From the NCBI GenBank assembly GCA_017472575.1, contig JAFUPX010000044.1, forward strand, positions 1 through 58,898: DNA of 58,898 nt, in the 5' to 3' direction. A program made the translations under genes and the position numbers. Under the pieces are notes generated by a model that saw only the letters and a list, made by a program, of their open reading frames with translations, was not told the DNA's origin and made no database searches. The stretch's first letter is position 1. Each line of letters starts with the position of its first letter. This document shows, in pieces, positions 49,133 through 58,898 of this stretch. The stretch is from Clostridia bacterium (lineage in GTDB: Bacteria > Bacillota > Clostridia > Oscillospirales > Acutalibacteraceae).

Positions 49133-49359
49133 AGTATAAATCTCCTTGTTTTACAGATAATAACAACACAATTTGTAAATTAAGGAAAAATGAATATATG
49201 AAAGCAACCGGAATTGTGAGAAGAATTGAGGAATGTGTTATAATAGGACAAAAGTCGGAAAAACCGCATAAACACTAGGATTTTCGCTGATTTTTGTCTT
49301 ACCACATTTGCACAAAACAATATATACATAGCAAAAGCGGAGTGATTTCACTCCGCTTT
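49133..49359 (+). repeat. MKATG repeat, copy A
   Basis: First of five co-oriented copies. From left: AGTATAAATCTCC; left dyad TTTACAGAT / ATTTGTAAA; AAGGA; mini-ORF 49198-49278; TTTTCGCTGATTTTTGT; CATTTGCACAAA; ATATATACATAGC; right hairpin AAAGCGGAGTG / CACTCCGCTTT (49334-49344 with 49349-49359). The hairpin has A's before and T's after, so it can terminate on both strands and closes the minus-strand gene next to it, whose stop overlaps it. I do not recognise this element from known repeat or RNA families. Confidence 0.85.
49198..49278 (+). CDS. Mini-ORF A of the MKATG repeat (26 aa)
   Basis: ATG 49198 follows AAGGA and opens 26 codons ending TAG 49276-49278. Residues 1-9 are MKATGIVRR, then IEECVIIGQ, and the end is KPHKH. 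The first nine equal the start of AbrB/SpoVT-family DNA-binding proteins, after which the similarity fades. TGTTATAAT inside codons 13-16 looks like an extended -10 promoter element. Expression is unproven. Confidence 0.5.
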   Translation: MKATGIVRRIEECVIIGQKSEKPHKH

Positions 49360-49720
49360 ACTTTTCTTGTTTTACCCACCAACCATTACAATCTATATAT
49401 CCAAATCGATTCATAAACGGTTCTAAGACTTTTATTTGACCTGTTGTAGGAATAGTTATCCCTTCGCTTATTAGTGTTTCAAAAATTTTGTTTTTATACT
49501 CGTCCATTAAAGTGCCCCACTCATCAGTAATGGCACAAGCTGTTTTATGTTCAGGAGAGCCTTCTTCATAATCGTATTCATTATCTTCAACCCACCAAAA
49601 TTTATTATGAGTTATTGCATAAGCATCTGCCAAGTCTTTTTCTGTTTGTTTATCAGAAAAATAAGCCTTAACATCTGTTGCGGTCATATTAGGGATAGGT
49701 TCTTCTGTCATAACATACAC
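49358..49720 (-). CDS. Acidic protein of unknown function (120 aa)
   Basis: A 120-residue, clearly acidic protein without membrane helix or recognised domain. Features visible are a C-terminal GWWVKQEK, a central EDNEYDYEEGSPEH stretch and several Trp and Tyr residues. GTG 49720 is preferred as start, since AGGAGG lies 8 bases before it; ATG 49711 is also possible. It sits between repeat copies A and B, is read against the repeats and ends in the hairpin of copy A. Its base use is more AT-rich than that of the biosynthetic genes. I do not recognise it. Confidence 0.65.
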   Translation of the reverse strand: MYVMTEEPIPNMTATDVKAYFSDKQTEKDLADAYAITHNKFWWVEDNEYDYEEGSPEHKTACAITDEWGTLMDEYKNKIFETLISEGITIPTTGQIKVLEPFMNRFGYIDCNGWWVKQEK

Positions 49721-49793
49721 AACAAAGACCTCCTTTTACATCCATTATTTTAAATTTATTATATCACAACCACTTTAAAAAGTAAATTCACAC

Positions 49794-50024
49794 AGTATAA
49801 ATTCCCTTTAATCACAAATACTAACATCACGATTTGAATTTAAAGGAGATTTGTATATATGAAAGCAACCGGAATTGTGAGAAGAATTGAGGAATGTGTC
49901 ATATTAGGACAAAAGTTGTCGAAAACTGCGTAAATGCTGGATTTTTTGCAGTTTTTGATTGAACCCAATTTGCACGAAAAATAATATACATAGCAAAAGC
50001 GAGGGGATTTCCCCTCGCTTTTTT
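49794..50024 (+). repeat. MKATG repeat, copy B
   Basis: The most diverged copy. AGTATAAATTCCC is followed by a degenerate left dyad, AAAGGAG, mini-ORF 49859-49933 (same first 12 residues), a changed middle, CAATTTGCACGAAA, ATATACATAGC and the right hairpin AAAAGCGAGGGG / CCCCTCGCTTTT (49995-50006 with 50011-50022). The hairpin stem sequence differs from copy A at paired positions. The AraC gene on the minus strand ends 8 bases beyond. Confidence 0.82.
49859..49933 (+). CDS. Mini-ORF B of the MKATG repeat (24 aa)
   Basis: ATG 49859 to TAA 49931-49933; 24 residues beginning MKATGIVRRIEE and ending SKTA. A three-base insertion relative to copy A and downstream changes give a different C-terminus, and the internal -10 is degraded (CATATT instead of TATAAT). 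SD AAAGGAG. Possibly a decaying copy. Confidence 0.4.
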   Translation: MKATGIVRRIEECVILGQKLSKTA

Positions 50025-50031
50025 ATACCTG

Positions 50032-50856
50032 TTATTTCGTGAGCCGAATGTTTCTGTACTTGCCCGGAGAGATCCCAATTATCTGCTTAAATTTTTTGCC
50101 AAAATAATAGACATCGTTATAACCAACAAGTGTTGCAATCTCCTCCAGTTTACAGTCTGTGTTTTCAAGTATATAGACGGCTGACATGATACGTTGTTTC
50201 GTTATATATTCAATAGGCGATTCTCCATAGAATTTCGCGAATAGTGCTCGGTAATGTGATTCACTAACCCCCTCGATTTTTGCCAGCGTCGCTATCCTTA
50301 TTATTTGGGGATAATTTTCGTGTATATATACCAGTGATTTTTGCAAAATTTTTTCTCTGTCGGTATGTTGTATTTTTCTTGAAAACGCCGTTAATATCTG
50401 CGTAAAAATAGCATTGCTCATATTTTCAAAATGCTTATCATGAATTGTAAATTCATGACACATTCTTTCCCACAGTTCAATTATCCTCACAGAATGCCCA
50501 CAATGCATGATTGTGTTTGTTTTAAGCCCTGCGGTAAGCAGCTTCTGTTGTGCTCTGTATCCGGTAAAATGCAACCACAGATAATTTACCGCAGCATCTT
50601 TCGCAGAATAACTGTATTGCGTATTGGGTTCTAAAATTAGGAAATCGCCATCAGCTATTACAAAAGTTTTGCTGTCAAAAGAAATCGGTTGACTTCCTTT
50701 TATCACGTACATCATATAATAATCTTTTCTGACCGAACGCGTAGAATAATGATTTCGATCAACTGCACCGACACAGTTTATAACAATTTCCTTCGAATCG
50801 TCGCATATATTCGCTGAAGGCTCATTTGGGGCAGTATAATACGTTTGTGTTTTCAT
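50032..50856 (-). CDS. AraC-family transcriptional regulator
   Basis: 274 residues with an N-terminal cupin-like sensor (about 35-120; YYMMYVIKGSQPISFDSKTFVIADGDFLILEPN) and a C-terminal double helix-turn-helix (about 175-272; SESHYRALFAKFYGESPIEYI, then VGYNDVYYFGKKFKQIIGISPGKYR). It is divergent from the DUF4091 gene, with a 113-bp shared region that has repeated TGTCA words, so it is probably that gene's regulator. It ends against the hairpin of repeat copy B. Confidence 0.88.
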   Translation of the reverse strand: MKTQTYYTAPNEPSANICDDSKEIVINCVGAVDRNHYSTRSVRKDYYMMYVIKGSQPISFDSKTFVIADGDFLILEPNTQYSYSAKDAAVNYLWLHFTGYRAQQKLLTAGLKTNTIMHCGHSVRIIELWERMCHEFTIHDKHFENMSNAIFTQILTAFSRKIQHTDREKILQKSLVYIHENYPQIIRIATLAKIEGVSESHYRALFAKFYGESPIEYITKQRIMSAVYILENTDCKLEEIATLVGYNDVYYFGKKFKQIIGISPGKYRNIRLTK

Positions 50857-50969
50857 ACAGCTACTCCCATCATCAAATAATACATTTCATCAATTATTTC
50901 GTCCATTGTCATTCATACAATGTCAGTATACAATAAAAAACACACTAATGTCAATGAAGGGATGATAAT

Positions 50970-52610
50970 ATGAATTTAACGGTAAAACAAGTATCAAGTC
51001 TTGAAAAAATACGTCCGGTTGGTATCGGAAACGTAAAGAAGTTCAGGCACAAAACAGTAATGCGCGGGCAGTTCTTTTCATATCAGATTGCAGTTTCATC
51101 ATCAAATAGTACAACATTGAATTTTAAAATTGATTCAAAAATCAAAAAAAGCATAACCATATATCACGTTAAAAATATAATTATGGATCTTGCCACCTAC
51201 GAAGGTGCCGATGATGACTACCTTGAAAAGAATCCCGCCCTTATGCCGGATATGCTGCTCCCTGCAGAGAATGCTCAAATCAAGCTGAACGGTGATACTT
51301 CTGTCATTTGGATTAACGTTAAGGTGCCTGAAAATATTGCAGCCGGAGAATATACCATCACAACCACGCTTACCGCAGCAAACCCATTCGAGGAAACGCA
51401 GGTCAAACAGGTATTGTATCTTGATGTGATAGACGCGAATATCGGTGAACAGCAAACACTTTTCACGCAATGGTTTTATCCCGATTGTATCGCGGACATT
51501 CACAACGTCTCCATATACAGTAAAGCACACTGGGCTTTAATTGAGAAATATTTAACACTTGCGTGTGAATTGGGCATCAACACAATTTTGACACCGATCA
51601 TAACGCCCCCTCTCGATACAGCTGAAGGCCATACCCGCCCCTGCACGCAGCTTGTTAAAATTGAGAAAATTGGCGAGAGGTTTGATTTCGATTTTACGTT
51701 GCTCGGAAAATGGATAACTCTTTGCCAAAAATGCGGTATTCAATATTTTGAAATGTGTCAGCTTTTTTCGCAGTGGGGACTTAAATATGCGCCCAATATA
51801 CGCATCAAGGAGAATGGCAAAGAATACTATATGTTTGGTTGGCACACGAATGCAAGCTCTGAAGCGTACACGGATTTTCTCAAACAGTTTTTACCAGCAC
51901 TGATGGCCTATCTGCAAAAGGCCGGCATCAAAGATCGCTGTTTCTTCCATATTTCGGATGAACCGCATATCGCTCACCTTGAAGCATATAGGTCAGCCTA
52001 TGATATTGTAAAACCCCTGATTGACGGACGTCCTATACTGGACGCCCTTTCGAGTTATGCGTTTTATGAAAACGGCGTTGTTGACATTCCTGCTACCGCA
52101 TCAAATCATATTGATGAATTTCTCGAGCATAACGTTGCCAATCAATGGGTGTACTATTGTTGCGGTCAATACAAGGACGTTGGCAACCGATTTATCTCCA
52201 TGCCATCCTACCGTAACAGAATATTAGGGCTTCAGATGTACAAGTACAACGTGAAAGGATTTTTGCATTGGGGTTACAACTTTTACAACAGCCAATTTTC
52301 TCTTGAAAAAATTAACCCCTATGTTACAACGTCGGCAGATAAGGCATTCCCATCCGGCGATCCTTTTTCGGTATATCCTACAATTGACGGCGTAACTCCG
52401 TCACTGAGGGGATTTGTGTTCAAAGAGGCGTTATCGGATATTGAGGTTTGCCGCAAATTAGAAGAGTATATCGGCAGAGAAAAGGTGATTGAACTTATCG
52501 ATACCGCAGCCGGTATGAATTTGACTTTTTCGAATTATCCGAGAAATACAACCTTTATACTGGATCTGATTGAGCAGATGGAGATTGAAATAAAACGCCA
52601 CAACACATAA
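50970..52610 (+). CDS. DUF4091 / GH123-like glycoside hydrolase
   Basis: 546 residues: an N-terminal beta-sandwich (about 1-155) and a TIM-barrel-like part corresponding to DUF4091, which is related to GH123 N-acetyl-beta-galactosaminidases. The Asp-Glu pair used by GH123 in substrate-assisted catalysis is seen in FHISDEPH (D330, E331). WVYYCCGQY and GFLHWGYNFY fit the sugar cleft. No signal peptide is present, so it should act on imported sugars. SD AAGGGATGAT. It has the AraC regulator upstream. Substrate unknown; GalNAc-type glycans are only a family-based guess. Confidence 0.8.
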   Translation: MNLTVKQVSSLEKIRPVGIGNVKKFRHKTVMRGQFFSYQIAVSSSNSTTLNFKIDSKIKKSITIYHVKNIIMDLATYEGADDDYLEKNPALMPDMLLPAENAQIKLNGDTSVIWINVKVPENIAAGEYTITTTLTAANPFEETQVKQVLYLDVIDANIGEQQTLFTQWFYPDCIADIHNVSIYSKAHWALIEKYLTLACELGINTILTPIITPPLDTAEGHTRPCTQLVKIEKIGERFDFDFTLLGKWITLCQKCGIQYFEMCQLFSQWGLKYAPNIRIKENGKEYYMFGWHTNASSEAYTDFLKQFLPALMAYLQKAGIKDRCFFHISDEPHIAHLEAYRSAYDIVKPLIDGRPILDALSSYAFYENGVVDIPATASNHIDEFLEHNVANQWVYYCCGQYKDVGNRFISMPSYRNRILGLQMYKYNVKGFLHWGYNFYNSQFSLEKINPYVTTSADKAFPSGDPFSVYPTIDGVTPSLRGFVFKEALSDIEVCRKLEEYIGREKVIELIDTAAGMNLTFSNYPRNTTFILDLIEQMEIEIKRHNT

Positions 52611-52684
52611 AAGACTAAACGATATTCTGCTTTTCAGTATAAATCTCCGTGTGTTTACAGATACTAACAGCGTAATTTGTAAAA

Positions 52685-52816
52685 TAAGGGGAACGAGGGG
52701 AGCGCCGCCAGTGGCGGGAGGAGCGACCCGAGTGAGTGGCAGCGGTCGACAGATGAGGAAGGCTTTTCAAAGCCGACGAAGATGTCGCCACCGCAATAGG
52801 GCAAACTTTCCCCTTA
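52685..52816. repeat. GC-rich inserted element inside copy C
   Basis: About 130 bp with terminal inverted repeats TAAGGGGAA (52685-52693) and TTCCCCTTA (52808-52816), much richer in G and C than the surroundings. Internal palindromes include GCTTTTCAAAGC and GCCGCCAGTGGCGG-like parts. It splits the left dyad from the mini-ORF ribosome binding site. It looks like a small non-coding mobile or palindromic repeat unit. Confidence 0.55.
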
Positions 52817-52846
52817 CAAAAATGTTAGTAAAAAGGAGAAAGATAT

Positions 52847-52927
52847 ATGAAAGCAACTGGTATCGTCCGTCGGGTGGAGGAATATGGTATAATAGGACAA
52901 AAGTCGAAAAAACCGTATAAACACTAG
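52847..52927 (+). CDS. Mini-ORF C of the MKATG repeat (26 aa)
   Basis: ATG 52847 with AAAAGGAG 9 bases upstream, 26 codons to TAG 52925-52927. MKATGIVRRVEEYG with different codons from copy A (for example CGT CGG for the two Arg), then the conserved second half ending KPYKH. TGGTATAAT inside is a perfect extended -10. Confidence 0.5.
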   Translation: MKATGIVRRVEEYGIIGQKSKKPYKH

Positions 52928-53032
52928 AGTTTTCGCTGATTTTTGTGGGGCTCAATTTGCACAAATCAATACATATATAGCAACAGCGAGGTGAAATTCA
53001 CCTCGCTGTTGGCGTTTTAGACAGAAATTGCG

Positions 53033-54103
53033 TTATTCCAGAACCGGTATCTCACAGTGAAATGGCGTTGTACGATTCCATACATAAGGATAAATATATG
53101 AACACTGTCCGTCAGGAGTGGTTTTGTTATGGGAGATAAGCCATTTGCCGTCGCCAAAAGAATAAAGACCCGTTGCACCAAAGGGGAAATCCCAACCGTA
53201 AATGCCGCTCTTTTGATCATAGGTGCCGAAAGGCCTCAGGTTAAGCGTCTCTACTATTTCTGCTGGTATGCTGCATATTTTTTTCTTTGCAGGCGCTTCA
53301 ATGTCAACAGCAAACAAAGAAAAGTTGGGGAAATTGGGCTTGCTCCCCTTGTAAACCGCCATAAAGATAGACTTGGTAAACCGGTCATATTCAAGATTTT
53401 GTACACCATAGTGGGTATTGCCTGTGCGTACAAAGAACTTGTTAAGCGGTGCGGAGGGCCCGCGTTGATGCATATTTTTTTGATTAAGCGGTTGGGCATA
53501 TGTGCTCCAATCGGAAAAATCGTAACAAAGCAATATTTGATGATCGTTATCATCTCTGTTGAGATCGCCGTAAATTCCGTAAGCTACATACAGGTAAAGA
53601 CCGTCGTTTTCACTTTTTCCCGGCAGAGGAGCAAAGGTAAGACCGTCTATACCAGAACATCCGTATTTATGGAGAACAGCATTGCCCTCTTTGCCGATTC
53701 CCGTTCCGTTATAATCATCTATGACCTCTTTCAGATATACTGCTGACATAATATCACTGTTTTCGGCAGGGATGTCAAAGCGGTCAATTTTTGCCACATC
53801 AAATTTGACAACATAAAACGCATCAGAAAAATTCAAATCGGAGTCAATGGCATTAAGGATACCTTTGCCGATGACATCATTTTTATATTCCAACGAGCCA
53901 TACACACAACCGTCCGCTTCATTAAACGCAATGCATCCCAAATGACCGACAAGACCGTCTACCGAACCAATAATCTTGCCGTCAAGCGTTGCCTTTATCA
54001 GTTTTGTCGTGAAAGAATAGTATATATATCCGTTTTTTCTGTCAACGGCAATTCCCTGAATGTGACAGTTTCCCCATGTTCCGGTAAAAAGTGGCTTTTT
54101 CAA
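53033..54103 (-). CDS. Beta-propeller-like protein of unknown function
   Basis: 356 residues made of repeated short beta strands with a pattern like GNCHIQGIAVDRKNGYIYYS and HLGCIAFNEADGCVYGS, as in YncE- or SMP30-type propellers; KYGCSGIDGLTFAPLPG and GVQNLEYDRFTKSIFMAVY look like further blades. There is no signal peptide or membrane helix. It lies 39 bases after the araM gene on the same strand, so they probably form an operon and might share a substrate. It ends just before the hairpin of repeat copy C. I do not recognise a named family. Confidence 0.65.
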   Translation of the reverse strand: MKKPLFTGTWGNCHIQGIAVDRKNGYIYYSFTTKLIKATLDGKIIGSVDGLVGHLGCIAFNEADGCVYGSLEYKNDVIGKGILNAIDSDLNFSDAFYVVKFDVAKIDRFDIPAENSDIMSAVYLKEVIDDYNGTGIGKEGNAVLHKYGCSGIDGLTFAPLPGKSENDGLYLYVAYGIYGDLNRDDNDHQILLCYDFSDWSTYAQPLNQKNMHQRGPSAPLNKFFVRTGNTHYGVQNLEYDRFTKSIFMAVYKGSKPNFPNFSLFAVDIEAPAKKKICSIPAEIVETLNLRPFGTYDQKSGIYGWDFPFGATGLYSFGDGKWLISHNKTTPDGQCSYIYPYVWNRTTPFHCEIPVLE

Positions 54104-54142
54104 AATATCTTTTCCCCTTTCGTTATAACGGTTCAGGTGTTT

Positions 54143-55405
54143 TTACTGTGCTTTTCCGTAAAAATCGTAGTACATCCAGAGCACAGTGTACCTGTCCTTT
54201 AAATCCTTGGCGTAAAGGATTGCGTCGTCAATTTTTTCTTTGCTATAAAGACTGTAAAATTCTTCCATATTAAGGTTTACAAGGGAAAGCATTTTCTTTA
54301 TTTCCTCGGCGCTTGGCATTTCGGCAAGAATTTGTCTGATTTCGGCTTCCTTGCTCAAATATATTTGGGCGTTATCGTTTTTATAATGGCCCACTTTTTC
54401 CTGCAATTCCATACAGCCATTTGCGGAGGCTTTATAAAGGGATTCCATTTTTTTGGTATATTCGTTGCTGTCGGGACGGTAAATTTTTTGAGGAAATGTG
54501 TTTGCTAAAAGCATTTCACGCAATTTTGCTGTAATAACGGTGGAATATGCAACATCTATTCCGTGGGGGAAATAATCCGCACCATTGATAATTCCTGTTA
54601 TTTCAAAAAAGTGAGACAGGTGGTGTTCGCTGCCCGACGCAGGGCGGGAAGATCCTGCAAAGCTCATTAAAATCCCGATGATCACCAAGGCCTCCATCAA
54701 TGCCTTGATACTTTCCTCATTCCTTTCCAGAATGCCCTGGGATAAGGCAAGCGTTCTTTTTATCTGTTCGTAGGTTAAATCATAGATGTAATCGCAAAAA
54801 TATTCGTTGGTTACACAATGGCTTAGTTTCCAGTCGTTGAGTGCAGAAAATTTTCCGATTATATCGCCATAGCCTGCCTGTATCATATCGATAGGAGCAT
54901 TGGCTAACACCTCGGTGTCAGCAATGATTGCCCGGGGAAGTCCTGCCTTATAGGTGACTTTCATACCGTTTGTGATCATGGCAGCGCCATTTGAAGCATA
55001 GCCGTCCATTGAGGGAGCCGTTGCGACAATTATATATGGCACATTGTTATAGAAAGAAATATATTTGCATAAATCCTGAATTACGCCAGAGCCAATGCCG
55101 ATTATGATTTGGGAATCGCCTAAATTTTGGGTAACGGTATTGATGGCAATTTCATTTGGAATAAGGACCTCTCTACCGCTGAAAATAACTTTTCTAATTG
55201 TCTTGCCGTCCAGTGCGTTCAAGGTGCGCTTACCGGCGGCCTCAAAAGTGTTTTCATCGGCGACGATCAAAACGTTGCTAAAATCTTTGCAAATATTTGC
55301 AAGGTGATCGATCGCGCCGCTGTCGATATATACATACTTAATATCGCAAGTGTGAAATTTTCCGCAATCACAAGAAACTCCTTCTAATATTTTGTTGATA
55401 TTCAT
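54143..55405 (-). CDS. araM: sn-glycerol-1-phosphate dehydrogenase (AraM/EgsA family)
   Basis: NAD(P)H-dependent reduction of dihydroxyacetone phosphate to sn-glycerol-1-phosphate, the lipid backbone stereoisomer used by archaea and, in some bacteria, for other phospholipids. The 420 residues show IIGIGSGVIQDLCKYI (nucleotide site), TAPSMDGYASNGAAM, and the metal ligands in SGSEHHLSHFFE and a later His (HGIDVAY). It is slightly longer than B. subtilis AraM (about 394). The start is ATG 55405; frame extension to 55489 enters repeat-associated DNA. The divergent repeat copy D begins 67 bases upstream. Confidence 0.88.
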   Translation of the reverse strand: MNINKILEGVSCDCGKFHTCDIKYVYIDSGAIDHLANICKDFSNVLIVADENTFEAAGKRTLNALDGKTIRKVIFSGREVLIPNEIAINTVTQNLGDSQIIIGIGSGVIQDLCKYISFYNNVPYIIVATAPSMDGYASNGAAMITNGMKVTYKAGLPRAIIADTEVLANAPIDMIQAGYGDIIGKFSALNDWKLSHCVTNEYFCDYIYDLTYEQIKRTLALSQGILERNEESIKALMEALVIIGILMSFAGSSRPASGSEHHLSHFFEITGIINGADYFPHGIDVAYSTVITAKLREMLLANTFPQKIYRPDSNEYTKKMESLYKASANGCMELQEKVGHYKNDNAQIYLSKEAEIRQILAEMPSAEEIKKMLSLVNLNMEEFYSLYSKEKIDDAILYAKDLKDRYTVLWMYYDFYGKAQ

Positions 55406-55530
55406 ATATAAACCCCGTTTCAATTCGTGTTCTTGAATAATAGCACAGCAACAATAAAAAGTAAACCCTGCAGTATAATCTTCTCCCATTTACAGATACT
55501 AACAGCGTAATTTGTAAAATTATTGTAGGG

Positions 55531-55650
55531 GAACGGATTGCCACGCCAGTGTACGCACTGGCTCGCAATGACAGCGGTGGTCGGTAGACGCTGCGTCTAT
55601 CGAACTTGCGTGTCATTCCGAGGGCGCTTGCGCCCGTGGGAATCCGTAGC
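55531..55650. repeat. Highly palindromic inserted element inside copy D
   Basis: About 120 bp. Outer arms ACGGATTGCCACG (55533-55545) and CGTGGGAATCCGT (55635-55647) pair with one mismatch. Nested inside are GCCAGTG/CACTGGC (55545-55562), AATGACA/TGTCATT and GGGCG/CGCCC (55622-55635). The GCAATGACA...TGTCATTCCGAGGG wording is like widespread non-coding palindromic repeats of many bacterial genomes. It lies at the same place of the repeat as the unrelated insertion in copy C. Confidence 0.65.
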
Positions 55651-55676
55651 CCAACATCTGTAAAGGAGAAAGATAT

Positions 55677-55751
55677 ATGAAGGCAACAGGTATCGTAAGA
55701 CGAGTAGAGGAATATGGTATAATAGGAAAAACATCGAAAAAAACCGCATAA
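55677..55751 (+). CDS. Mini-ORF D of the MKATG repeat (24 aa)
   Basis: ATG 55677 after AAAGGAG, 24 codons to TAA 55749-55751. MKATGIVRRVEEYGIIGK, with a Lys codon AAG and Arg codons AGA CGA that differ from copies A and C. A one-base length change in the A-run before the stop shifts the end to KKTA. Perfect extended -10 TGGTATAAT inside. Confidence 0.45.
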   Translation: MKATGIVRRVEEYGIIGKTSKKTA

Positions 55752-55866
55752 ACACTAGGGTTTTCGCTGGTTTGCCCCACTGAACGCATTGGTGTCAAAA
55801 TTGAGTTTTGGGCGGTTTTTATACATAGAAAAAAGTGAGGGGAAGCCCCTCACTTTTTCTGATTAA

Positions 55867-55992
55867 TTAATGTTTTGCTGCTTTGTGATCAGCCAATGTT
55901 TTGCCAGCATTGCTTTTAGCTTTTTTAGAAGACTTTTTAGAAGCTAAAGTTTTGCCAGCTTTACCGACATTGCCACCATGATGTACCGCCAT
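55867..55992 (-). CDS. Small basic protein with repeated GKTLA motif (41 aa)
   Basis: A 41-residue, Lys/Ala/Ser-rich protein with two copies of the motif GKTLA (GKAGKTLASKK near 10-20 and NAGKTLADHK near 28-37), joined by KSSKKAKS. ATG 55992 follows GGGGGGT. The composition resembles nucleic-acid-binding or intrinsically disordered small proteins. Only 2 bases separate it from the gene at 55995-56210, which is upstream in the same direction, so they form a two-gene unit ending at the hairpin of repeat copy D. Confidence 0.55.
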   Translation of the reverse strand: MAVHHGGNVGKAGKTLASKKSSKKAKSNAGKTLADHKAAKH

Positions 55993-55994
55993 TT

Positions 55995-56210
55995 TTACCC
56001 CCCATGCGCATTAGGACAGCAAACTGCACATCCATCTGCGTCTTGATAATACATTTTGGCTTTTGCCACGGCATCTGTTTCACTTGCATAATAGCCAAGA
56101 TAAGTGGCACTTATTATGCCAAGTTTGTTTTTGTGTTCTTCAGTATGAACTTCGTGATGAAGTCCAGGATTATTAGTCTGGTTGTTATTAACATAATAGT
56201 GTTTATACAT
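55995..56210 (-). CDS. Small CxxC-type protein (71 aa), hypothetical family
   Basis: ATG 56210 after AAGGATG gives 71 residues; the frame extends to ATG 56219. The N-terminal part (NNNQTNNPGLHHEVHTEEH) is polar with four His, then LGIISATYLGYYASETDAVAKAKMYYQ and the end DADGCAVCCPNAHGG with C-x2-CC and His. This matches a hypothetical family of Firmicutes (HEVHT ... YLG ... AVxxAK ... GCxxCC) that I know without function; a metal site is plausible. It is followed by the GKTLA protein. Confidence 0.65.
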   Translation of the reverse strand: MYKHYYVNNNQTNNPGLHHEVHTEEHKNKLGIISATYLGYYASETDAVAKAKMYYQDADGCAVCCPNAHGG

Positions 56211-56271
56211 AAAACACATCCTTCCCGCCGATTATTACGGCATAAATTTTTCGTTTTGTGAATTTTTCCAG

Positions 56272-56395
56272 TAGACAAACTGGATCCGGATGTGTTATAC
56301 TGAAACCACAGCAATGTTGGATTGTTTAACACATCCAGCAAAGAGAAAGCATTTTGTTTGTTGTTGCCGCAACTTACGAAATGCTTTCTTTTTTT
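56272..56395 (+). ncRNA. Candidate small RNA with own promoter and terminator
   Basis: TAGACA (56272-56277) and TATACT (56296-56301), spacer 18, predict a start near 56308. The short transcript would hold hairpin TGTTGGAT / ATCCAGCA (56315-56322 with 56333-56340) and end at terminator AGAAAGCATTT / AAATGCTTTCT (56344-56354 with 56379-56389) with a 7-T run. The promoter also lies in an inverted repeat GGATGTGTTA / TTAACACATCC. No supported ORF is present. It is divergent from the small gene pair. Confidence 0.5.
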
Positions 56396-56658
56396 GTTAC
56401 AATCAATTTTCATCAACTCTCTTTCAGAATAAATTTGGCAAAAATCTATATTCACCGCATTATATTATAGCATACTTTCCTTAAAAGTCAAGCACATTTC
56501 CACAATATATTGCGTTTCTTAATTATAAAAAATCAATATATTGTATATACTTTTACATATTTGTACATACTTTAATATATTTTTTCACAAAAATAAGTAA
56601 AACAGCGGAGTGGAATTCCACTCCGCTTTCGTTATGCGATAAAATTTTGGGGATTATT
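56396..56658. other. AT-rich non-coding region with orphan repeat hairpin
   Basis: Mostly AT-rich with many TATAT runs and no supported gene. At 56604-56627 lies the perfect palindrome AGCGGAGTGGAA/TTCCACTCCGCT, preceded by CACAAAAATAAGTAAAAC. This resembles the right hairpin and flank of the MKATG repeat (copy A), so it may be a solo end left by a deleted copy. Confidence 0.45.
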
Positions 56659-56901
56659 GATTTTTAAAGTTTTATGTGGTAAAATAATTATGCCAAACCA
56701 ATTGAATATAAAAACAGGGGCAATTTTTTACTTTTAGTAATTATTGTGCCTTTTTTGCGCATACTCATTTTGTGAATTTGATAAAAATGCAAATTCCGTC
56801 GATATGGATACAGCAGTAATGCTTGTTATATTGAATTAGTTTGGCGACTATCGGAGTTTGCGTTTTTTGTGCGGTTACTTCGGTAGCCGCACTTTTTATT
56901 T
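56657..56901 (+). promoter_or_regulatory. Promoter and structured leader with terminator before the adenylating enzyme
   Basis: TTGATT (56657-56662) and TAAAAT (56680-56685), spacer 17. The ~215-base leader has hairpin I (56716-56750, then six T's), hairpin II GCAAATTCCG / CGGAGTTTGC (56789-56798 with 56852-56861, outer A/T pairs, then T6, with a long internal sequence) and a tight terminator GTGCGG..CCGCAC (56869-56892, then T5). The latter ends only 20 bases before the start codon. Such an arrangement suggests attenuation by an unknown signal; I could not match it to a riboswitch class. Confidence 0.5.
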
Positions 56902-56916
56902 TACGGAGGAATTGAA

Positions 56917-58617
56917 ATGCCTACAGAAAAGAAACTGACGGGTTATCCGTCTATTGATAAACCGTGGTTAAAGTACCACTCTGATAGTCATATATATAGA
57001 GTTGATACTACAGATACTATTTACAATAATTTTAAAAAAATAGCTCTTATAAAGCCAAACCATTTAGCTTTTATCGATTTTAAAACCGGACTCAAGGTTA
57101 CATATGACGAATTATTAAAATCTGTGGATAATTTTGCCGCTGGCTTAGCAGCTATGGGTATCACAAGCAAGAACAAAGTCGGAGTACTTGGTTTTAACAG
57201 TTCAATAGATCCTGTGGCTCTGCTTGGGGCAAACAAAGTTGGTGCAACAACTGTTTTTGTAAATCCTGACGGCAGTTCATCTGATATATCAGAAAACATC
57301 AGTTATGTCGATATTCTGATTTTGGAAAATATTTTTGCGGAAATGGAGCCATCAATTAACAAAAATAACATTCCTGTTGTAATATATGGTTATTACCCGT
57401 ACTTGCCATCACCCAACTGTATAGATTATGATTGTTTTATTTTGCGTGGACAACAACAAAATGTTAGTGCTTTCGTTTCAAAGAGCGACAATGATGCATT
57501 AGTTATATTCAGTAGTGGATCAACGGGTAAGGCAAAACCAATATTACATACAAATCATACTGTAAATTCTGCAGTTCAAAAGATGTTGTGCTCAGATTTC
57601 CCAATAAACGAAGATAATATTCTAATAAAGGCCATACCTTCTCATATAGGTCTTGGAGTTATTACCACAATGCTTGTTTCTTTGATGGCGGGAACAACGT
57701 TTGTCCAATTAAAAGGTTTGCCCGATCCGGCAATTGGGTTAGCAGAAGAGACATTAGGTTTGATCTCTCACTTTGAAGAATGGTCAATCAGAAACGACAT
57801 AGAAATGAAAAGTGGATTGATTCTTTTTGCTGCTCCATATTTTGCTAAACATATTCTTTCAAAGATAGATGAAGTAAAAAACATGGGTATGTTAAAGGGC
57901 ATTTTGCTTGGCGGCGCCAAAATGCAAAAAGAAGAGTTAGATATGATGGATAAAGCTTTTGGCGAAAAAGGATTGAATATTCCTGTTTGCAATGGTTATG
58001 GACAAAACGAAATGGGCGGTGCGGTCGCTTTAAACACTGTTCATTATAATAAAAACGGTAGCGCAGGATACCCTGTTTGTGGCACAACAATTAGAATAGT
58101 CGATCAGCAAACTTATAAAGAGGTACCGTATAACACTGTCGGTCAGATTCTCGAACAAAGCGACAGTAAGTTTTTGTGTTATTTGGGAATGGAAGAAAAA
58201 ACTGATGCATCCAAAATTATTCTTCCCGATGGAACGGAGTGGTACGATTCTACCGATCTTGGTTATATGGATGAGGATGGTTTCTTATATATTACAGGAA
58301 GAACAACAAGAGTTATAATTAAGACGGACCATAAAGTGTCTTTAGATGTTGTAGAATCCAAACTAAAAGGAATTGTCGAGGTTTCTGATGCTGCCGTTGT
58401 GCCTTTTCGTAATGAAAACGATGATGAAGAAATGATAGCGTTTGTTGTGTTAAAAAATAAACAAATTACGCTGTCATTAGACGATCTTAAAGATGGTAAA
58501 TATAATTTAACTGTTTTTGAAGTTCCTGATAGACTTATAATAAAGAATAAATTACCGCACATGAACAACGGCAAAGTCGATTATCAAACACTTGAAAAAG
58601 AAATGGAACTTTTATAA
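56917..58617 (+). CDS. AMP-dependent synthetase/ligase (acyl- or aryl-activating)
   Basis: 566 residues of the ANL superfamily, which activate a carboxylate as acyl-AMP. The phosphate loop is FSSGSTGKAKPILH (about 198-211), the A5-type motif is NGYGQNEMGGAV, A7 is YDSTDLGYMDEDGFLYITGR (about 447-466), and the C-terminal catalytic Lys is in NNGKVDY (about 554). It stands alone, without carrier or condensing proteins, so it might be an acyl-CoA ligase or feed a distant carrier protein. GGAGG precedes ATG 56917. Its codon use is more AT-rich than the biosynthetic genes, as for other genes in this region. Confidence 0.82.
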   Translation: MPTEKKLTGYPSIDKPWLKYHSDSHIYRVDTTDTIYNNFKKIALIKPNHLAFIDFKTGLKVTYDELLKSVDNFAAGLAAMGITSKNKVGVLGFNSSIDPVALLGANKVGATTVFVNPDGSSSDISENISYVDILILENIFAEMEPSINKNNIPVVIYGYYPYLPSPNCIDYDCFILRGQQQNVSAFVSKSDNDALVIFSSGSTGKAKPILHTNHTVNSAVQKMLCSDFPINEDNILIKAIPSHIGLGVITTMLVSLMAGTTFVQLKGLPDPAIGLAEETLGLISHFEEWSIRNDIEMKSGLILFAAPYFAKHILSKIDEVKNMGMLKGILLGGAKMQKEELDMMDKAFGEKGLNIPVCNGYGQNEMGGAVALNTVHYNKNGSAGYPVCGTTIRIVDQQTYKEVPYNTVGQILEQSDSKFLCYLGMEEKTDASKIILPDGTEWYDSTDLGYMDEDGFLYITGRTTRVIIKTDHKVSLDVVESKLKGIVEVSDAAVVPFRNENDDEEMIAFVVLKNKQITLSLDDLKDGKYNLTVFEVPDRLIIKNKLPHMNNGKVDYQTLEKEMELL

Positions 58618-58623
58618 ATATCT

Positions 58624-58659
58624 AAAAATCAACACGAAAATTCATCGTGTTGATTTTTT
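58624..58659. terminator. Intrinsic terminator of the AMP ligase gene
   Basis: Stem of 14 bp, arms 58624-58637 and 58645-58658, 7-base loop, A-rich and T-rich sides. It lies 7 bases before repeat copy E. Confidence 0.9.
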
Positions 58660-58665
58660 GTTTCA

Positions 58666-58898
58666 AGTATAATTTTCTCCTTTTAACAGATAATAACAAC
58701 ACAATTTGTAAATCAAGGAGAAATGTATATATGAAAGCAACAGGAATTGTTCGTAGAATAGAGGAATATGGTATAATAGGACAAACATCGAAAAAACCGC
58801 ATAAACACTAGGGTTTTCGCTGATTTTTGTCCAACTCAATTTGCATAAAATCCGGTCAAAATCGGTTTTTCGGCGATTTTAGAAAGGAGCAGAGCAAC
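58666..58898 (+). repeat. MKATG repeat, copy E (runs to window end)
   Basis: AGTATAATTTTCTCC, left dyad region with AACAGATAATAACAACACAATTTGTAAA-like wording, AAGGAG, mini-ORF 58731-58811, TTTTCGCTGATTTTTGTCC and CAATTTGCATAAAA. The usual GC-rich hairpin is not seen; instead AAAATCG / CGATTTT forms a weak hairpin near 58859-58880, followed by AAAGGAG, which may be the ribosome binding site of a gene beyond the window. Confidence 0.78.
58731..58811 (+). CDS. Mini-ORF E of the MKATG repeat (26 aa)
   Basis: ATG 58731 after AAGGAG, 26 codons to TAG 58809-58811; MKATGIVRRIEEYGIIGQ and end KPHKH as in copy A, but with CGT/AGA arginine codons and third-base changes at Thr, Val and Ile. TGGTATAAT inside. 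GGACAAA and TTTGTCC on the two sides of the second half can pair, suggesting a folded RNA as well. Confidence 0.5.
   Translation: MKATGIVRRIEEYGIIGQTSKKPHKH

Follow-up and report, generated by a model that had tools for sequence, protein, structure and literature searches.

In the final 10 kb of a 58,898-nt stretch of Clostridia bacterium DNA (the window), a repeat recurs that carries a mini-ORF beginning MKATGIVRR, which raises the question of what this repeat is and what its small reading frame stands for. The best explanation is that the five repeats are attL-type (B.P') junctions between small integrative cassettes arrayed in tandem where spoVT begins, at its 5' end, with a mini-ORF that has no coding role of its own; judged from sequence comparison, we assign these two statements a joint probability of about 0.8. 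B would comprise the spoVT promoter, the RBS and codons 1-10, P' would be half of the attP site of a large serine recombinase (LSR), and crossover would take place at a GA dinucleotide.

Five co-oriented copies at the contig end

The window genome (G000) is an assembly of 46 contigs (1.2 Mb, 82% complete), in which a 181-nt query found five copies only. As the initial annotation had described, all are co-oriented on the + strand and start at 49133, 49794, 52636, 55472 and 58666; the first 49 kb, which it had called free of copies, gave no match to a five-copy profile at E<=1e-3. The mini-ORFs, expected to span 24-26 codons, measure 26, 24, 26, 24 and 26 codons in copies 1-5. The common plan claimed for the copies stands as a layout and loosens in its exact motifs: TTTTCGCTGATTTTTGT is exact only in copies 1, 3 and 5, CAATTTGCACAAA is exact only in copy 3, altered in copies 1, 2 and 5 and missing from copy 4, and copy 2 has a changed dyad. 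In copies 3 and 4, REP-like insertions of ~140-150 nt separate the dyad from the ORF, and copy 5 is truncated where the contig ends. The following features were assigned, with promoters named after what we take to be the sigma-G/F consensus:

49134..49162, +: copy 1, sigma-G/F-like promoter GTATA-N17-GATAATA, putative spoVT leader
49198..49229, +: copy 1, putative B half-site, spoVT codons 1-10 and GA crossover dinucleotide
49228-49229: copy 1, GA core, first two bases of codon 11
49230..49254, +: copy 1, putative P' half-site of an LSR attachment site
49260..49278, +: copy 1, conserved hairpin arm and loop AAAACCGCATAAACACTAG
49334..49359: copy 1, terminator-like hairpin adjoining the convergent gene's stop codon
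49230..49890, +: cassette 1, with a single gene (49358-49720, -) of 120 aa that matched no Pfam family
49795..49823, +: copy 2, sigma-G/F-like promoter
49859..49915, +: copy 2, putative B half-site (GA core 49889-49890) and P' half-site
49995..50022: copy 2, terminator-like hairpin
49891..52878, +: cassette 2, AraC-type regulator (50032-50856, -) and GH123-like glycosidase (50970-52610, +)
52637..52666, +: copy 3, sigma-G/F-like promoter, followed by a ~150-nt REP-like insertion to ~52836
52847..52903, +: copy 3, putative B half-site (GA core 52877-52878) and P' half-site
52981..53011: copy 3, terminator-like hairpin
52879..55708, +: cassette 3, gene without Pfam match (53033-54103, -) and Fe-ADH_2 (54143-55489, -)
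55473..55501, +: copy 4, sigma-G/F-like promoter, followed by a REP-like insertion at ~55524-55660
55677..55733, +: copy 4, putative B half-site (GA core 55707-55708) and P' half-site
55830..55858: copy 4, terminator-like hairpin
55709..58762, +: cassette 4, small ORFs at ~55.9-56.5 kb and AMP-binding enzyme (56917-58617, +)
58667..58695, +: copy 5, sigma-G/F-like promoter
58731..58787, +: copy 5, putative B half-site (GA core 58761-58762) and P' half-site
58763..58898, +: start of cassette 5, where the array runs off the contig end

Many related genomes were found to contain related copies, and in all 24 loci that held both, every truncated copy lay upstream of, and co-oriented with, an intact spoVT. 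Because of these two observations the repeats are far beyond chance. The matches in 111/198 genomes include intact spoVT standing alone and are not an array count, while the strict pattern match in 18/394 genomes is a lower bound. The family is also uncatalogued, as had been supposed: Rfam gave a single match, below the gathering score (E=0.95), and a small RNA or riboswitch from that collection was rejected.

The left half of a copy and the start of spoVT

The likeness of MKATGIVRR to the start of AbrB/SpoVT regulators turned out to be meaningful, although the mini-ORF is no gene of its own. Its start is identical to that of SpoVT, full SpoVT genes stand at the 3' end of arrays, and the AbrB domain and SpoVT_C are incomplete in it, since sharing is limited to codons 1-10 in type A and to codons 1-33 in type B. 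The mini-ORF can thus be read as the first ten spoVT codons run into recombination-site DNA. By the same comparison, the left half of a copy is assigned to the spoVT start, with a forespore-type promoter, an RBS and codons 1-10, and the AGTATAAATCTCC block and the dyad to the spoVT promoter region. All five copies contain a sigma-G-like GTATA-N17/18-RATAMTA. In the window genome, spoVT from codon 32 on was located at the very end of contig C23, adjoining pyk, as expected if an array breaks the assembly.

The right half of a copy and LSR elements at spoVT

The copies had been described as a repeat family; rather than a self-contained repeat, each copy marks a seam between gene cassettes. Each is a recombination junction and not an RNA or toxin-antitoxin unit. 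Its right half is best assigned to half of an LSR attachment site, plus hairpins. Among 98 aligned copies P' is conserved over ~25 nt, after which conservation falls. The GC-rich hairpin after the TATACATAG-like box lies mostly beside the stop codon of a convergent cassette gene, as expected of a terminator, and probably ends transcription of that gene. The recurrent starts MRQKS and MMPDER after the tail were rejected as genes; inspection by eye of some reading frames suggested further terminator hairpins.

Four LSR elements (in G172, G058, G100 and G163) share one end point, the GA formed by bases 1 and 2 of spoVT codon 11. The GA core is common to attL and attR in G058, G172 and G100, and LSR genes adjoin attR in all four. 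G172 and G100 each have three LSRs, with attL and attR ~67 kb apart in the former and on two contigs in the latter; in both, the spoVT gene is interrupted, and a search for another full copy found none. G163 also has three LSRs and shows attR only, its attL not being found in loci L320 and L322. Five LSR proteins, from G172, G058 and the type-B elements of G023 and G047, matched PF07508 (5/5) and PF00239 (4/5). By a crude test, P/P' was palindromic in one of three elements (G058, p=0.019; not G172 or G100). No LSR gene was found in the array of the window, and PF07508 had no match in the window genome or in G054 (99% complete), indicating that without a supplied LSR these arrays are immobile at present.

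Mantel tests were performed on 100 distinct type-A copies. P' was linked with the adjacent tail (r=0.42-0.51, p=0.002) and the leader with codons 6-10 (r=0.11-0.12, p=0.003-0.006), while codons 6-10 and the adjacent P' were not linked (r=-0.03, p=0.89). Linkage breaks at the GA while each side stays internally linked. In the 49 of these copies with a usable TATACATAG-like box, analysed with another distance measure, leader and B showed no significant link (r=0.04, p=0.18); a weak link joined B to the outer P' (0.08, p=0.03), with none to the part adjoining the GA. Among 45 intact spoVT genes the link between leader and B was likewise not significant (0.08, p=0.07).

Cassettes between the junctions

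Cassettes were counted only if both ends lay in one fetched locus and spanned <30 kb, which gave 54; large elements, such as those in G058 and G172, stand outside this set. Before counting, locus L075 was removed because it is nearly the same as L074, as were copies that duplicated the 135-nt core or lay too close to the end of a contig, and one (L055) of the 11 type-B copies is probably a spoVT gene cut by a contig end. The smallest cassettes measure 0.66 kb, 28/54 hold one gene, and neither an LSR nor a tyrosine recombinase was found in the 136 ORFs, numbers that are approximate since genes were called with a greedy longest-ORF script. In 34/54 the first gene converges on the site, with its stop within 230 nt (110-217 nt from the left ATG). 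The cargo includes genes for sugar use, DNA methyltransferases and Fic proteins, alongside many unknowns.

Cassettes are bounded by B.P' on the left and by a full promoter with codons 1-10 on the right. With this right end, each insertion leaves spoVT whole and restores the target B.B'. Compared with the empty site of G259, G280 has a 1.2-kb one-gene cassette placed at spoVT with its own promoter and codons 1-10; this insertion is into another family, and the leader is unlike the native one. G220 and G280 share the same cassette body and leader (100% over 80 nt), with tails that are only 78% identical, and the tail of the MetH cassette is likewise decoupled from its body. Tails are thus not strictly co-inherited with cassette bodies, which counts against the best explanation.

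How the cassettes may move

How cassettes move was inferred as follows. An LSR element would lodge at the regenerated target beside a cassette (B.P'-cassette-B.P'-element-P.B'), and excision between the outermost B.P' and P.B' would take element and cassette off as one circle. This circle would integrate at spoVT of a new host, where the element could later leave alone while the cassette stays; homologous recombination between repeats might then mix tails and alter array length. Such a route needs nothing beyond the usual reactions, attP x attB and attL x attR.

Alternatively, a circular B.P' cassette could recombine directly into B.B' through an LSR acting in trans, as in integrons and without a carrier element. 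The many cassettes that hold one gene and have the site on its 3' side, the 34 convergent first genes, the breakpoint at the GA, a P' conserved even where tails have diverged and the lack of a recombinase in the cassettes all agree with this. However, the serine integrases studied are reported to recombine only attP with attB, or attL with attR when the directionality factor is present (PMC3783163), and such direct joining is considered rather unlikely. No circular form of a cassette was seen. The broader proposition of a second, independent gene-cassette platform, on which an LSR in trans joins B.P' and B.B' directly, is doubtful by a shade less. If it were true, the spoVT start would act like attI and the structured tail like attC, and the right end, by rebuilding promoter, start codons and target, would permit limitless arrays with the host gene unharmed. 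Homologous recombination could also have acted alone, with an old LSR scar repaired by a donor spoVT start and cassettes then shuffled, duplicated and transferred by RecA via the repeats. Linkage that decays along the tail (0.44 to 0.20), tails decoupled from bodies and array genomes (G000, G054) without a PF07508 match speak for this reading, which is considered unlikely and is opposed by the loss of linkage at the GA between two internally linked sides, by the four LSR elements that use this same GA and by the insertion into another family with a foreign leader.

Two further readings concern the repeat itself. With its structured ends, similar length (~190-260 nt) and several copies per genome, it could be a mobile MITE-like or RNA element scattered into intergenic regions; yet the five copies of the window genome all stand in one array, copies lay upstream of spoVT in every testable locus, the empty site shows that gene and repeat moved together and Rfam held no match above threshold, which leaves this the most improbable reading. 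Only slightly less remote is that the copies are regulatory decoys, or give a small RNA from the TGTGTTATAATA box, and titrate a spoVT regulator. This is favoured by the likeness of the P' half to an extended -10 promoter and by the terminator-like hairpin behind it, but the TGTGTTATAATA box is an attachment half-site at the LSR elements, and RNAalifold found no consensus RNA structure in 51 leaders.

Other identities were rejected. An IS110/bridge RNA system was discarded with the transposase unmatched in 23 of 29 array-bearing genomes and over the cut-off in 4/29, and capture by a tyrosine integrase or Xer with none in the cassettes and only two tyrosine recombinases, both Xer-like, in G054. 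A phage origin was dismissed as two type-A hairpin patterns and a spoVT-start pattern were unmatched in IMG/VR. The type-B pattern gave eight 17-base matches in IMG/VR. A 239-base query had no match in plasmids.

Relation to known systems

The array of attL-type junctions points to a single-gene acquisition route in gut Clostridia, of which no report was found in the literature searched. It implies that mobile units can reuse one target indefinitely by bringing along the promoter and first codons of that target, and it may explain why contigs frequently end at the spoVT locus. As many cassette genes stop beside a terminator-like hairpin at the site, it also offers a second system for asking how integron cassettes arise. 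Literature searches, which covered few subscription papers, returned no report pairing spoVT with a serine recombinase; in the records retrieved, spoVT with gene cassette and array led to integron work only, and among the matches listed none concerned the spoVT locus by title.

Staphylococcal cassette chromosome (SCC) elements, with their Ccr recombinases, are comparable in that the LSRs match CcrA/B/C models and one conserved gene is targeted, but the scores are far below the Ccr cut-offs and the target is another. The sigK skin, according to the excerpt of PMC5025042, is an intervening element in a sporulation gene, as are the recombinase elements that split spoVT in G172 and G100, whereas array cassettes leave spoVT whole. 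ICESt1/CIME are att-flanked elements without recombination genes that accrete in tandem with an integrative element (PMC3146451, excerpt). The spoVT cassettes equally lack an LSR or tyrosine recombinase, but they are smaller and more numerous, and their right ends consist of leader and codons 1-10 (a B half) with no P half, unlike the usual attR (P.B') of a CIME. Tyrosine integrases serve the ICESt1/CIME case, while the spoVT system seems to use LSRs.

Integrons share the co-oriented array, the short and often single-gene cassettes, a site mostly just 3' of the gene and an enzyme absent from the cassettes. In contrast, the sites of the spoVT array are LSR half-sites in spoVT and many genes are antisense to the array. 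No integron integrase was found in G054, which is 99% complete and has a cassette; its XerD-like and XerC-like proteins scored 122 and 75 bits on the IntI model TIGR02249 (cut-off 265).

The Dehalococcoides ssrA islands, as presented in the excerpt of PMC3146451, stand in tandem at one gene, are bounded by repeats of its end (20 bp of the 3' end of an RNA gene) and have a CcrB-like LSR as integrase; 15 islands lack an integration module and were suggested to be cis-mobilizable and moved by accretion. Tandem units at one gene, gene-derived repeats and an LSR integrase are common to both systems. As far as this excerpt allows comparison, the spoVT array differs in that its repeat comes from the 5' end of a protein gene, spanning promoter, RBS and ten codons, and that its cassettes, down to 0.66 kb, often hold one gene convergent to a terminator-like hairpin and lack a recombinase in 54/54 cases. 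Taken together, the array appears to be integron-like in layout and akin to the Dehalococcoides ssrA islands, and seems to be an undescribed system with a different recombination enzyme.

Truncated spoVT copies form the array

Five related, co-oriented copies were located in the window at the positions given by the initial annotation, and a query with the fifth copy against the own assembly (G000; 1.2 Mb, 82% complete, with the window as its contig C25) returned exactly these five matches. The claimed absence from the first 49 kb was borne out by a profile search, which gave no match there, and an Rfam search with the repeat yielded nothing above threshold, in agreement with the annotation, which recognised no known riboswitch class or repeat family in it. 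The array is cut off by the contig end. Copies 3 and 4 carry two differing REP-like palindromic insertions at an equivalent site, between the promoter dyad and the RBS.

Repeat copies and insertions in the window
49133 (start), + strand, copy 1
49794 (start), + strand, copy 2
52636 (start), + strand, copy 3
55472 (start), + strand, copy 4
58666 (start), + strand, copy 5
about 52684-52836, REP-like palindromic insertion in copy 3
about 55524-55660, REP-like palindromic insertion in copy 4

The mini-ORF had been described as starting like AbrB/SpoVT regulators. In 40 fetched loci, ORFs starting with MKATGIVRR were of two kinds, full genes of ~175-183 codons and truncated ones. The full-length gene, which contains SpoVT_C (PF15714) and an AbrB/MazE-like domain (Pfam) and scores 217 bits against TIGR02851, slightly below the cut-off of 236, is SpoVT. 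The identical start was thereby confirmed, and the window mini-ORFs are of the truncated kind. The spoVT sequence ends two bases into codon 11, with GA, in type-A copies and after about codon 33 in type-B copies. A search of relatives with the copy 5 query gave matches in 111 of 198 genomes, a count for which an intact spoVT by itself suffices. As to location relative to the abrB-like gene, every truncated copy was upstream and co-oriented in 24/24 loci containing both intact spoVT and a truncated copy. No intact copy was found in the own assembly; spoVT from codon 32 onward lies at the extreme end of contig C23, adjoining pyk, and we infer that C25 and C23 are joined via the array.

A promoter-like leader precedes GA and an attachment half-site follows it

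GTATA-N17/18-RATAMTA was present upstream of the ATG in 5/5 window copies. Among distinct type-A copies, 75/100 had a looser GTATA/RATAMTA form within 330 nt upstream (shuffles: 2.2), as did 38/45 intact spoVT genes (shuffles: 1.2), a contrast that overstates independence since the pattern was derived from these same leaders. The pattern resembles the consensus of forespore sigma-G/F promoters. RNAalifold detected no common structure in 51 leaders. A near full-length sigma-G-like gene was found in 6/10 genomes searched (E 1e-122 or better; under the curated cut-off), and the own assembly gave no more than a weaker match. According to PMC4383634, GTATA is an element of sigma-F promoters and SpoVT a factor of the forespore.

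Immediately after GA follows GGAATGTGTTATAATARRRCAAA, conserved over ~25 nt (98 aligned copies), after which conservation falls and a hairpin AAACC-GCATAAACACT-GGTTTT is reached. The GGAATGTGTTATAATARRRCAAA box constitutes an attachment half-site. Genome G172 harbors a ~67 kb element flanked by a junction of this kind and by spoVT from codon 11 onward, with three large serine recombinase (LSR) genes at the element's right end, and a ~30 kb element with an LSR gene at its right end occupies the same GA in G058. G100 and G163 each contain three tandem LSRs, then a TACTTGACA motif, then spoVT from codon 11; the left junction (attL) is on a separate contig in G100 and was sought but not found in G163. 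The three-LSR genomes represent three families of the order.

Tandem LSR triplets (G172, G100, G163)
L275:12195-17165
L319:4530-9553
L320:2611-7571

The P halves of the four elements have 12-15 of 22 positions in common, pairwise, and a P/P' palindrome was detected only in G058 (p=0.019), not in G172 (p=0.63) or G100 (p=0.89). In G058 and G163 the element sits in a type-B copy and intact spoVT then follows; in G172 and G100 it splits spoVT, and no further full copy was found. Relatives of the G058 LSR (E<=1e-90) occur in 8/196 genomes. A PF07508 search gave no match in the own genome or G054, so their arrays may be stranded.

Left and right sequences are probably joined at GA

G280 and its empty relative G259 agree in the flank upstream, in the native leader and in codons 1-10. 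In G280 a tail comes after GA, then an antisense gene of 308 codons, and then, ahead of spoVT, a leader that differs from the native one and is of a type found in other families. G220 shares body and leader with G280, but the tails are just 78% identical. By eye, codons 1-10 adjoining spoVT look foreign up to GA in G220 and native, not foreign, in G280, so that the crossover there may be slightly left of GA.

Joining at GA should let left and right sequence vary independently, while kinship alone is expected to link both sides. In a set of 100 distinct type-A copies, the leader was linked with codons 6-10 (r=0.11-0.12, p=0.003-0.006) and P' with the tail (r=0.42-0.51, p=0.002), and codons 6-10 showed no association with the adjacent P' (r=-0.03, p=0.89). 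The link of leader and B (promoter, RBS and codons 1-10) was not significant in 45 intact spoVT genes (0.08, p=0.07) or, by another measure, in a 49-copy subset (0.04, p=0.18), in which B was weakly linked with outer P' (0.08, p=0.03) and not with the part beside GA (-0.05, p=0.81). Linkage decays along the tail from 0.44 to 0.20, which together with the decoupling of tail and body indicates homologous exchange inside tails too.

Cassettes carry diverse cargo

The loci studied contained 54 units between successive junctions (661-10,516 nt), 28 of them single-gene cassettes. The first gene past the junction is antisense in 43/54, and in 34/54 its stop lies <230 nt from the left ATG. In that region 38/54 cassettes have a perfect GC-rich hairpin, versus 6/255 control windows; among the 34, it occurs in 31, with the stop codon <=15 nt from the hairpin end in 26. 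The 105 cargo proteins gave matches to 127 Pfam families, each in at most 7 proteins; among the matches listed (25/127 families) were AraC regulators, DNA methyltransferases, Fic and varied enzymes. LSR and tyrosine recombinase profiles matched none of 136 cassette ORFs. The window cassette proteins at 53033-54103 and 49358-49720 are without any Pfam match.

Hairpin CGCATAAAYACTRGGKTTTTCG was also observed elsewhere (L144-L146, L157, L158, L163, L164, L195, L197 and others): at an apparent guaA 3' end in 19/80 among the matches listed, and <=350 nt from tRNA genes in 7/30 other matches versus 8/150 random windows, which probably places it in the attachment sites used by other, unrelated integrative elements. 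Its presence in records named Bifidobacterium, Fermentimonas, Absconditabacteria and Thermoplasmatales archaeon (L166, L172, L186, L219) reflects either wide spread or mis-binned contigs.

A second site lies near codon 31-33

Four genomes encode in-frame fusions in which an LSR runs into SpoVT at about codon 31 and carries the SpoVT C-terminal domain.

LSR-SpoVT fusions (G023, G052, G039, G047)
L288, L290, L296 (minus strand), L291:188-1630
L301:2593-4731
L303:1605-3806 (minus strand)

On integration here, the LSR would lose its own tail and gain that of a sporulation regulator, the SpoVT_C domain, a swap that could serve as a switch. Type-B tails encode a peptide in the spoVT frame, conserved in most copies, which is probably the LSR C-terminus in the circular form. 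In G023 (C3, 34-72.5 kb; L300, L302), a ~38 kb island of mostly sugar-transport and carbohydrate-type genes (by eye) has a type-B junction at one end and an LSR-SpoVT fusion at the other.

Comparison with known systems

The spoVT array is real, widespread and apparently undescribed, and apparently represents a variant of LSR-driven tandem genomic islands in an integron-like layout. Cassettes may accrete when an LSR element beside a cassette excises with it as a joint circle, integrates at a new spoVT and later leaves alone, a route that would draw solely on reactions serine integrases are known to carry out; according to PMC3783163, sites paired in other ways do not recombine. What is unusual is that the cassette ends on the right in a complete gene start; insertion therefore leaves spoVT unbroken and does not consume the target. 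The proposed accretion resembles the Dehalococcoides ssrA islands, 15 of which, according to PMC3146451, lack an integration module and were suggested to be cis-mobilizable.
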